Shown here: piece by piece, positions 25,167 through 27,249 of the stretch
Layout: every line of letters starts with the position of its first letter
Position numbering within the stretch: the first letter of the stretch is position 1
DNA from: Actinomycetes bacterium
GTDB lineage: Bacteria; Actinomycetota; Acidimicrobiia; Acidimicrobiales; Aldehydirespiratoraceae
DNA length: 52,598 nucleotides
Reading direction: 5' to 3'
NCBI GenBank assembly: GCA_024276495.1
Contig: JAJRXC010000045.1
Coordinates: 1-52,598, forward strand
The notes under the pieces: generated by a model
What the model was told of the DNA's origin: nothing
The model's input: only the letters and a program-made list of their open reading frames with translations
The model's database searches: none
Translations under genes and position numbers: made by a program

Positions 25167-25679
25167 ATGTTGAGTGCGATCCACGTGATGGGGGACTACT
25201 GGAGCGACGGTGCCGACCAGCGGTCGACCCTCGGCGCACTCGTCACCGCGGCGAAGGATCGGGGAGCCGCCGAAGCCCTCGACGAGCTGTGCGCCCGCAT
25301 CGGCGCGTTCGCCCGCACCCTCGATCTCCCCGACACCGCGACCATCGTGGCCGTGCCACCCGCACCCGACCGCGATGCGCATCCGGTACCGGCGCTGGCC
25401 CAGGCAGTCGCCGCCGCGCTCGGGGCCGAGACGGCCCCGACCGTCACCCGGCGACGCTCGACGCCGAGGCTGCGGGACACGCCACTCGACCGGCGAGCAG
25501 CCGTCGTCGGAGCCGCCGGCTACGAAGTGGCCGAAGCCGTCGAAGCACGACGAATCGTCCTCGTCGACGACGTCGTCCTCACCGGCACCACACTGACCCA
25601 CATCGCCGGGCTGCTCGTCTCGGCGGGCGCCAGTCGAGTCGACGCGATCGTGGCCGCCAGGACCCGGCAACGTCGCTGA
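25167..25679 (+). CDS. phosphoribosyltransferase-like protein (ComF-type)
   Basis: A 170-residue protein with one clear signature, the PRPP-binding loop VLVDDVVLTGTT at residues 131-142, as in type I phosphoribosyltransferases and ComF-like proteins. VAVPPAPDRD near residues 61-70 would be the matching upstream strand-loop. There is no N-terminal zinc finger as in full ComF. The acceptor substrate is unknown. It is divergent from the HBHA-like gene across a promoter region with an inverted repeat. The stop comes 14 bases before the convergent FrnE-type gene. Confidence 0.75.
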   Translation: MLSAIHVMGDYWSDGADQRSTLGALVTAAKDRGAAEALDELCARIGAFARTLDLPDTATIVAVPPAPDRDAHPVPALAQAVAAALGAETAPTVTRRRSTPRLRDTPLDRRAAVVGAAGYEVAEAVEARRIVLVDDVVLTGTTLTHIAGLLVSAGASRVDAIVAARTRQRR

Positions 25680-25693
25680 GCAACTCGACGCCG

Positions 25694-26326
25694 TCAGCCC
25701 CCCTGCGCCGACGCATCGAGCAGCCGCTCGATCCAGCCCGCCACCGTCTCGACATCCTGAGCGCCGGGAACGGGAAGCACCTCGTTCAACACCATCGTCG
25801 GGACCGCGGTGATGCCCTGCCCGATCGCCTCGTTGTGCTCACCGATCACCTGCTCGCGCAGTGCCCGCTCCCGTTCGGCGGTGAACGCCAGGAACTCGTC
25901 GCGGTCGAGACCGACATCGCCGGCGAGCTGGGCAAGCACCGCCCAATCGGAGATCGTGCGGTTCTCGGTGAAGTAGGCCCGCAACAGCCGGTGATGGAAC
26001 GCATCGGCCGCCTCCGGTTCGATCAGCGCCACCGACTTCGCGGCGACATGCGCCGGCACGCTCGACGTCGGCTGGAGCTCGTCGGTCGACCACACCCGGA
26101 ACTCCGCGCCGGGCTCCATCTCGGCCGGCCGCTTCCACGACTCCGTGTAACGGACGAACTTCTCCTGATCGGGCGCCTCGCCTTCGGTGCGGAGGAGGAA
26201 CGCCTTCCACGACACCTCGATCCGATCACCGAACCGCGCCGTGAGCTCGTCGAGACGGACCGTCCCGACATAGCACCAGGGTCAAAGAAAGTCGGACCAG
26301 GCGACGATTCGCACGGGATCGGTCAT
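25694..26326 (-). CDS. selenocysteine-containing DsbA/FrnE-family oxidoreductase (UPWC)
   Basis: The frame open from 26215 extends upstream, through a single TGA at 26284-26282, to an ATG at 26326, giving a 210-residue FrnE/DsbA-fold protein. Residue 15 (the TGA) stands exactly where the family has the first active-site cysteine, so the site reads U-P-W-C with C18. The fold is otherwise complete: start VRIVAWSDFL, then YVGTVRLDEL, and cis-proline P176 in GITAVPT. A SECIS-type hairpin follows (26249-26269). Translation from 26215 alone would lose the active site. A -10 box TAGGGT six bases before the ATG implies a leaderless mRNA. Role: thiol redox or isomerase chemistry in the cytosol. A disabled gene is the alternative, less likely given the stem and intact frame. 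Confidence 0.85.
26249..26269 (-). promoter_or_regulatory. candidate bacterial SECIS element in the FrnE-type gene
   Basis: Read on the minus strand, arms GTCGGGAC and GTCTCGAC pair over eight positions (one G-U) around the loop GGTCC. The loop starts 20 bases after the TGA, inside the 16-37 base range known for bacterial SECIS elements, and carries the GGUC of the E. coli fdhF loop. Confidence 0.75.
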
Positions 26327-26332
26327 GCCCCG

Positions 26333-26338
26333 ACCCTA
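26333..26338 (-). promoter_or_regulatory. leaderless -10 box of the FrnE-type selenoprotein gene
   Basis: TAGGGT on the minus strand ends six bases before the ATG at 26326, which independently supports the upstream start that includes the in-frame TGA. A plus-strand TATGCT (26337-26342) overlaps it and could serve the divergent dehydrogenase gene. Confidence 0.6.
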
Positions 26339-26367: not shown

Positions 26368-27249
26368 GTGAGCAGATGTGCCTTCATCGGACTGGGAGTG
26401 ATGGGCTATCCGATGGCGGGGCATCTCGCCGCGGCCGGCCACGAGGTCACGGTCTACAACCGGACACCGGCCAAGGCCGAGACCTGGGCCGGCCTCCACG
26501 AGGGAACGACCGCACCGACCCCGGCCGCGGCGGCCGCACACGCCGAGTTCGTCTTCGTCTGCGTGGGCGACGACGCCGATGTCCGCGCCGTCACCACCGG
26601 ACCCGACGGTGCGCTCGAATCGATGAGCGCCCAGACCGTTCTCGTCGACCACACGACGGCGTCAGCCGATGTCGCCCGCGAGATCCATGCCGCGGCCGCG
26701 GCCCGCGGCGTCGGTTTCGTCGACGCACCGATCTCGGGCGGTCAGGCCGGAGCCGAGAACGGGGTGCTCACCGTCATGTGCGGCGGGGATCGCGACACGT
26801 TCGACCGAGTGTCGCCCGTGATCGACGCCTACGCCCGGTCCTGCACCCTGCTCGGAGGCCCCGGCTCGGGTCAGCTCTGCAAGATGGTCAACCAGATCGC
26901 CATCGCCGGGCTCCTCCAGGCGTTGTCCGAGGGCATCGATTTCGCGGTCAGAGCCGGACTCGACGCCGACCTCGTCGTCGACACGATCTCGAAAGGGGCC
27001 GCCGGGTCCTGGCAGATGGACAACCGGGCGACCACGATGGCAGCCGGCGAGTTCGAGTTCGGCTTCGCCCTCGACTGGATGCGCAAGGATCTCCGCATCT
27101 GCTTGACCGAGGGCGACCGGCTCGGTGCCTCACTTCCCGTCACCGCGCTCGTCGACCAGTTCTACGCCCGACTCCAGCATCAGGGCCATGGTCGATGGGA
27201 CACCAGCTCGCTGATCGAGCTGTTGCGCGACGCCCCGACCGACCGGTAG
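26368..27249 (+). CDS. NAD(P)-dependent beta-hydroxyacid dehydrogenase
   Basis: A 293-residue member of the 3-hydroxyisobutyrate/6-phosphogluconate dehydrogenase-like family. The N-terminal Rossmann motif is FIGLGVMGYPMAGHL, the substrate-binding segment FVDAPISGGQAGAENG lies near residue 115, and the catalytic lysine is in GSGQLCKMVNQ. It oxidises a beta-hydroxyacid, of unknown identity, in the cytosol. The GTG at 26368 has GAAGGAG seven bases upstream; a reading from 26338 would add a basic stretch before the family start. It is divergent from the selenoprotein gene with 41 bases between the start codons. Confidence 0.88.
   Translation: MSRCAFIGLGVMGYPMAGHLAAAGHEVTVYNRTPAKAETWAGLHEGTTAPTPAAAAAHAEFVFVCVGDDADVRAVTTGPDGALESMSAQTVLVDHTTASADVAREIHAAAAARGVGFVDAPISGGQAGAENGVLTVMCGGDRDTFDRVSPVIDAYARSCTLLGGPGSGQLCKMVNQIAIAGLLQALSEGIDFAVRAGLDADLVVDTISKGAAGSWQMDNRATTMAAGEFEFGFALDWMRKDLRICLTEGDRLGASLPVTALVDQFYARLQHQGHGRWDTSSLIELLRDAPTDR

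Follow-up and report, generated by a model that had tools for sequence, protein, structure and literature searches.

DsbA-like selenoproteins have been in print since 2005, when nine DsbA-like UXXC sequences were placed under COG2761 in a study of the Sargasso Sea (PMC1088965). Later entries include four DsbA-like selenoproteins in a 2006 survey (PMC1794560), the family 'DsbA 1' with 63 entries in the GOS study, where it is described as more abundant in marine samples (PMC2398784), the figures 41 and 45 for DsbA-like protein in a 2016 survey (PMC5029168) and two DsbA-like proteins in an Asgard study (PMC11227280). In Table 1 of a 2026 review, 'DsbA-like protein form 1' is listed under PF01323 with the motif UxxC (PMC13188914). 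FrnE is described as a predicted cytoplasmic oxidoreductase with disulfide isomerase or reductase activity in vitro; a C-terminal CX4C pair in the Deinococcus radiodurans protein has been proposed to regenerate the active site, and some FrnE proteins lack this pair (PMC8945050).

The locus described here lies on the reverse strand of a 52,598-nt stretch of DNA (the window; contig JAJRXC010000045.1 of assembly GCA_024276495.1) from an actinobacterium of the class Acidimicrobiia. An earlier note, made from the letters of the window, had read the gene as encoding a selenoprotein with a U-P-W-C active site and had noted that selenocysteine (Sec) is reported in some DsbA-like families, as the records of PF01323 and COG2761 UxxC forms bear out (PMC1088965, PMC13188914). 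Judged from the comparisons set out below, the locus is very probably a bacterial selenoprotein gene: the predicted U-P-W-C protein is supported by the Sec machinery of the genome, by intact frames around the TGA, by the recurrence of TGA in the same alignment column and by constraint on a downstream hairpin.

The in-frame UGA and its relatives

Retranslation of 26326-25694 on the reverse strand gives MTDPVRIVAWSDFL-U-PWCYVG..., with a single internal TGA at codon 15 (26284-26282) and a terminal TGA, in agreement with the otherwise intact frame proposed earlier; the active-site stretch reads WSDFL-U-PWCYVG. The longest standard ORF in the frame covers only 25694-26215 (GTG start, 173 aa, residues 38-210), exactly the product that automated calling had been expected to yield, and gene callers that treat TGA as a stop remove the active site of the enzyme. 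The features of the locus are collected in Table 1.

Table 1. Features of the selenoprotein locus and its neighbours (positions in the window)
Feature	Position	Strand	Remarks
Predicted selenoprotein CDS	25694..26326	-	210 residues, ATG start, TGA stop; DsbA/FrnE-type oxidoreductase by PF01323 match, alignment and AlphaFold2
In-frame UGA, codon 15	26282..26284	-	read as Sec, putative active-site nucleophile of UPWC
Cys18 codon	26273..26275	-	putative resolving residue; invariant column, sole Cys in the protein
SECIS-like hairpin in coding RNA	26249..26269	-	9-bp stem, apical loop GUC (GGUCC with closing pair open), 20-21 nt after UGA
Pro176 codon	25799..25801	-	in ITAVPTMV; invariant column (50-row alignment)
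Putative -10 box TAGGGT of leaderless promoter	26333..26338	-	ends 6 nt before ATG
Divergent neighbour, 3-hydroxyisobutyrate dehydrogenase-like	26368..27249	+	PF03446, PF14833; not part of mechanism
Convergent neighbour, phosphoribosyltransferase domain	25167..25679	+	domain match; not part of mechanism

Relatives were collected by searching 395 genomes of the class, of which 71 matched at E <= 1e-15; the best 30 matches were taken to loci, a contig scan added a further 26 and the removal of six duplicates left 50 distinct loci, counting that of the window. At the position of U15, 30 of the 50 have TGA and the remaining 20 TGC or TGT, and in all 30 TGA loci the frame stays open after the TGA until the C terminus is reached where expected. 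Invariant columns of the 50-row alignment include that of Sec/Cys together with P16, C18 and P176 (presumably the cis-Pro loop of the thioredoxin fold). The motif of the Cys relatives is CPWC in 19 of 20 and CPFC in the other (L075). Three distant matches (G199, G342 and G190) were flagged with an internal TGA; the first of them (locus L042) has TGC at the U15 codon.

The short standard ORF is what would be expected if the TGA were a nonsense mutation, the mark of a pseudogene or a sequencing error, so that only residues 38-210, or nothing, would be made. Such an origin is highly improbable given the TGA at the identical codon in 29 other distinct loci, which excludes a single sequencing error, and given the pattern of substitutions. 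On either side of the UGA it is the third codon position that differs most often: the counts for positions 1/2/3 across codons 16-205 are 28/21/65 between the window and locus L050 and 39/21/77 between the window and locus L051, and the corresponding values across the few codons 1-14 are 2/1/3 and 1/1/5. In sequence terms, the codons after the UGA are under protein-level selection, and the changes before it are few but compatible with such selection. Residues 11, 12 and 14-18 are invariant in a 26-row alignment, and a restart at residue 38 would produce a protein that lacks the active site. A pseudogene, a sequencing error, a reassigned UGA and an internal restart were each rejected on the frame, the TGA column, the codon positions and the hairpin constraint.

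On the 50-row tree, five Sec/Cys changes are needed, and starred branches force four of these. One group, with support 99/98, is made up of 36 rows (30 Sec and 6 Cys) and is separate from the usual Cys FrnE-like forms found in the class. Wider profile searches at E <= 1e-30 gave 15 matches from 396 genomes of the phylum and six from 297 genomes of the phylum of a Binatia relative; TGA occupies the active-site codon in 9 of the former (the window's own and G075 included, and with L113 unread) and in 4 of the latter. On a tree with 14 rows added (62 rows, 40 of them Sec), seven changes are needed and at least six are forced by well-supported branches, counts that do not give the direction of change. 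Repeated switching is indicated because sister pairs join one Sec with one Cys member, namely L032/L030, L036/L034 and L070/L069 on starred branches and L118/L119 with support 97/76. A second actinobacterial family (f80; L106, L107, L109, L112, L115 and L116) has UPWC outside the main Sec group. When plasmids were searched by tblastn, 774 records matched, all of them, the 10 listed included, with identity below 60%.

The complete set of Sec genes sought in the genome (4.33 Mb in 111 contigs, 97.4% complete, 4.02% estimated contamination), following a check suggested in the earlier note, was present, each over its curated cut-off. A tRNA-Sec lies at C79:69528-69619 (64.6 bits, cut-off 47; called by ARAGORN as tRNA-SeC with anticodon tca), selB at C79:34957-36012 (275 bits, cut-off 242, with profile positions 2-338 of 581 only), the adjoining selA at C79:36057-37172 (395 bits, cut-off 268) and selD at C48:14587-15504 (L017:1501-2418, G000:C48; 369 bits, cut-off 125). 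The window itself gives no Rfam match at gathering score and no ARAGORN tRNA, and the machinery sits on other contigs. The selD gene has one in-frame TGA of its own within the motif GAGUGCK, which fits the UxxK that is entered as the SelD motif in Table 1 of PMC13188914, and by its sequence this SelD is probably also a selenoprotein.

Across genomes, tRNA-Sec was found in 36 of the 40 that carry the TGA form (own genome 1/1, followed by 14/14, 12/15 and 9/10 in three sets). In the first set it was also present in 12 of 24 other genomes, in the second in 2 of 5 Cys genomes and in the third, made of further TGA genomes, in 3 of 6 others; the genomes were picked from hits, with nine non-hit genomes in the first set, rather than randomly drawn. 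Among genomes with close Cys forms, G020 is without tRNA-Sec and G056 and G024 are with it. The TGA genomes in which it was not found are those of L051, L060 and L063 (titled MAG) and G583 (470 contigs, 98% complete). Four genomes (G698, G738, G477 and G087) each have two matches over the tRNA-Sec cut-off, the second being either a second tRNA-Sec or a look-alike.

An in-frame UGA with the frame kept on both sides might be decoded outside the Sec system, by readthrough, a suppressor tRNA or a reassigned code in which UGA specifies, for example, Trp. However, the same gene terminates with TGA, the residue found in all 20 non-TGA relatives is Cys and not Trp, tRNA-Sec, selA, selB and selD are all in the genome and the hairpin constraint described below is restricted to TGA rows, which leaves non-Sec decoding with very little probability.

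The SECIS-like hairpin and the promoter

The RNA from the UGA onwards (46 nt) folds into a hairpin with an MFE of -21.1 kcal/mol and a z of -2.38, with 4 of 200 shuffles equally stable; in a 39-nt window the MFE is -17.8. The loop is GUC at 21 nt after the UGA, or GGUCC at 20 nt if the closing G-C pair is open, which matches the GGUC loop proposed earlier at 20 bases past the TGA. The limits given for bacterial SECIS elements are a loop of 3-9 nt, an upper stem of 4-16 bp, a UGA-loop spacing of 16-37 nt, a G in the first two loop positions and an MFE <= -7.5 kcal/mol (PMC13188914), and the hairpin of the window lies within them.

Covariation was assessed on 51 nt from the TGA in the 30 Sec rows (A1) and on the same stretch of the 20 Cys rows (A2). 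In A1, 95.7% of the 210 cells of a 7-bp stem (columns 17-23 with 29-35) hold a pair, against 35-48% in slid registers; the figure for A2 is 53.6%, with no excess over shuffles. Five pair measures were compared with shuffles, which kinship among rows can exceed without any structure: the A1 covariation score is 0.324 against a shuffled 0.173 (0/500 as high), both partners have changed at three stem pairs, across 17 cells, and the weaker measures, namely these three pairs and six further pair types, are each reached by 12 of 500 shuffles. Compensatory changes comprise G-C to C-G at columns 21/31, accompanied by an exchange between Leu and Val, and A-U to G-C at columns 22/30, accompanied by one between Thr and Ala. 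From A1, RNAalifold predicts the hairpin short of a single pair; from A2 it predicts nothing.

The fixed-register pair count compared with synonymous shuffles is a sharper test than single-sequence fold statistics. Codons were redrawn from the usage of each gene, with the stem register derived from the same Sec rows. The 30 Sec rows keep 6.70 of 7 pairs against 4.72 (sd 0.17) in the shuffles and 16 thinned Sec rows keep 6.62 against 4.67, with none of 2000 shuffles as high in either case. No excess was detected in the 20 Cys rows (3.75 against 3.93 pairs, 1792/2000 as high) or in the six Cys rows inside the Sec clade (3.33 of 7 pairs against 3.63). Because the excess is confined to the Sec rows, selection at the RNA level acts on the hairpin in genes with TGA, and none is detected in those with a Cys codon. 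The TGA column is likewise more than chance, since 29 other loci share it and the pairing of the Sec rows stands above all 2000 synonymous shuffles. One Cys row, L119, has 0 of 7 stem pairs.

Single-sequence folds have a mean z of -1.39 in the 30 Sec rows and -0.18 in the 20 Cys rows and are weak in many rows: four of the 30 Sec rows (L021, L023, L062 and L066) miss -7.5 kcal/mol in the 39-nt window, and z is above 0 in L021, L023, L032 and L035. Of 10 additional Sec rows that were not in the first set, seven keep 6-7 of the 7 pairs and L118, L121 and L122 keep 5, 4 and 2; five of the 10 have a positive z, and the values of the remaining five range from -0.32 to -1.68. The f80 rows share this stem register, and in four of the six (L106, L107, L109 and L115) the fold has AGGUCGC as its 7-nt loop.

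The leaderless -10 box that had been proposed before the ATG is present as TAGGGT (Table 1), and no Shine-Dalgarno-like stretch was seen by eye before the ATG of the window's gene. In 27 of 30 Sec rows, which are related rows and not 27 independent events, TAnnnT ends 6-9 nt (mostly 6-7) upstream of the start codon; elsewhere, in 5-nt bins out to 49 nt, it occurs in three rows only, at 35-39, and its background in the window is 0.00066 per base. A box at 5-9 nt is also found in 8 of 20 Cys rows, and for this reason it is regarded as a habit of the lineage rather than as tied to Sec. In f80, four of six rows (L107, L109, L112 and L115) have, by eye, a GGAG leader instead of the leaderless box. 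On this sequence pattern, the mRNA of the window's gene quite probably starts at or beside the ATG and would be leaderless.

Fold, likely function and neighbourhood

The protein matches PF01323 (DSBA) with 89.3 bits (cut-off 25.6) over residues 7-197 and profile positions 2-188 of 191. No NCBIfam model scores over its cut-off against it, the values for NF041057 and TIGR00411 being 36 of 190 and 22.9 of 92.75 bits. Sequence matches among solved structures include Deinococcus FrnE and SCO1869. The AlphaFold2 model has a pLDDT of 95.6, and since its first strand starts at residue 5 and the start codon is backed by conservation and the -10 box, the protein is predicted to be cytoplasmic and to have no leader peptide.

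DsbA-fold proteins head the lists of fold matches. D. radiodurans FrnE has a Z of 23.7 (rmsd 2.4 over 201 residues, 29% identity), tied with 2in3 from Nitrosomonas, and Foldseek ranks it best by E-value; the earlier assignment of a U-P-W-C site, with UGA in place of the first Cys of CPWC, to a DsbA/FrnE fold is thereby supported. Further matches are, in order, YjbH (Z 21.8), SCO1869 (Z 21.7), DsbM, kappa GST (Z 19.8) and 2-hydroxychromene-carboxylate (HCCA) isomerase (Z 18.2). The shared superfamily and the Z scores of YjbH, kappa GST and HCCA isomerase would allow a selenoprotein with another job, either an enzyme like the latter two or a YjbH-like adaptor, a rival to the proposed function only. 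This seems unlikely, as both U/CxxC positions are invariant in the 50-row alignment and FrnE is the best match by E-value and shares the top Z.

The product is probably a cytosolic oxidoreductase of the DsbA superfamily, FrnE type, with the active site Sec15-Pro-Trp-Cys18. Its likely activity is to reduce or isomerise disulfides, in which Sec15 would be the nucleophile and Cys18 the resolving residue. In the proposed mechanism, SelB would recognise the hairpin 20 nt downstream, within the coding sequence, and deliver Sec-tRNA(UCA), which would decode the UGA at codon 15. Sec15 could then attack a substrate disulfide or a similarly oxidised thiol, and Cys18 would resolve the mixed selenylsulfide. 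C18 is the single Cys of the protein and the C-terminal CX4C is absent; because there is no second Cys pair besides Sec15/C18, an outside thiol system would presumably re-reduce the oxidised enzyme. The best match to MshC in the genome scores 418 bits, below the cut-off of 485, so that mycothiol is no more than a candidate reductant.

A role mainly in metal or metalloid handling, in which the selenolate would bind Cd, Hg or As and redox cycling would be secondary, has also been considered as a rival to the function alone. It draws on the induction of D. radiodurans frnE by cadmium and the greater cadmium and diamide sensitivity of the mutant (PMC8945050), and on metal-ligand functions proposed for Sec in the 2026 review (PMC13188914). 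Against it, no metal-resistance family was found among the 10 + 10 ORFs scanned in two sets (the first of window ORFs; several of the ORFs are spurious frames), and such a role is considered rather improbable.

No operon partner that could point to the substrate was found around the gene. In the window and in close relatives it is single, with a divergent dehydrogenase gene on one side and a convergent phosphoribosyltransferase gene on the other. The dehydrogenase is a mechanical ORF from 26338, and by eye the GTG at 26368, after AGGAG, is the likelier start; a dehydrogenase-like gene also lies upstream in L052. The phosphoribosyltransferase-domain protein is, we assume, ComF-like, and a similar ORF is present in 15 of 36 sequences compared, the window included. 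Neighbours differ between clades: seven relatives with small genomes of 1.2-1.8 Mb (L061-L067), which we take to be marine from their isolate names, have one or two similar same-strand ORFs upstream of the Sec gene (e.g. L061:2207-2982). Three of these ORFs were scanned and all were CrcB-like, CrcB being a fluoride-channel family. Both gene contexts look incidental.

Comparison with known systems

In the open-licence PMC literature, covered mostly at the level of titles and abstracts, neither this subfamily nor a selenoprotein mRNA without a leader was found described, and the open-licence papers that contain both 'selenoprotein' and 'Acidimicrobi' concern other subjects by their titles. A term search of the deep-Sep paper gives no mention of DsbA (PMC12013277); 'FrnE' has 0 occurrences in PMC13188914, PMC1794560, PMC1088965 and PMC2398784, and 'Acidimicrobi' has 0 in PMC13188914 and PMC5029168.

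We tentatively suggest, as a possibility worth serious consideration, that the gene belongs to a Sec-dominated FrnE-like subfamily of Acidimicrobiia and their neighbours, with alternation between Sec and Cys and with a hairpin constraint that accompanies Sec, and that actinobacterial members have leaderless mRNAs on which SelB may recode codon 15 with a SECIS element that begins only ~58-78 nt into the transcript. If true, bacterial Sec insertion would be found in a new setting, a selenoprotein mRNA that has no leader, and if the promoter holds, how SelB recodes codon 15 without a 5' leader becomes a question. The locus adds a well-supported selenoprotein to the Acidimicrobiia, a little-studied group of actinobacteria. 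The subfamily and its relatives, with at least six Sec/Cys switches and a hairpin constraint found only with Sec, provide a natural series for studying the benefit of Sec to a disulfide oxidoreductase.

Among described proteins, FrnE of D. radiodurans (DR_0659; 5coh, 5cnw) shares the fold, the xPWC motif and the predicted cytoplasmic location, but has Cys in place of Sec and the additional C-terminal CX4C (PMC8945050). The window protein is thus described as FrnE-related rather than as FrnE proper, without CX4C being taken as defining. SCO1869 of Streptomyces coelicolor (3gl5) is likewise actinobacterial and DsbA-like and has the same fold, but its identity is 26%; judging by its family motif, we take it to be a Cys protein. 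The Rcas_1661 family thioredoxin-like (seleno)lipoproteins (NF041057) are UxxC selenoproteins of the wider thioredoxin superfamily, entered as 'DsbG-like' (PMC13188914), but this model reaches only 36 bits of its cut-off of 190 and covers only residues 88-201 of the window protein.

The closest counterpart is the published DsbA-like selenoprotein, which, as far as its published entries describe it, has PF01323, Sec as the first residue of UxxC and a bacterial SECIS just after the UGA, as does the window protein by prediction; form 1 (e.g. NIP15863.1, AACY01178397) is likened to it by Pfam/COG family and motif only. While the DsbA-like kind of selenoprotein is already catalogued, what is added here is a Sec-dominated acidimicrobial clade, Sec/Cys switching accompanied by hairpin constraint and a probable leaderless mRNA.
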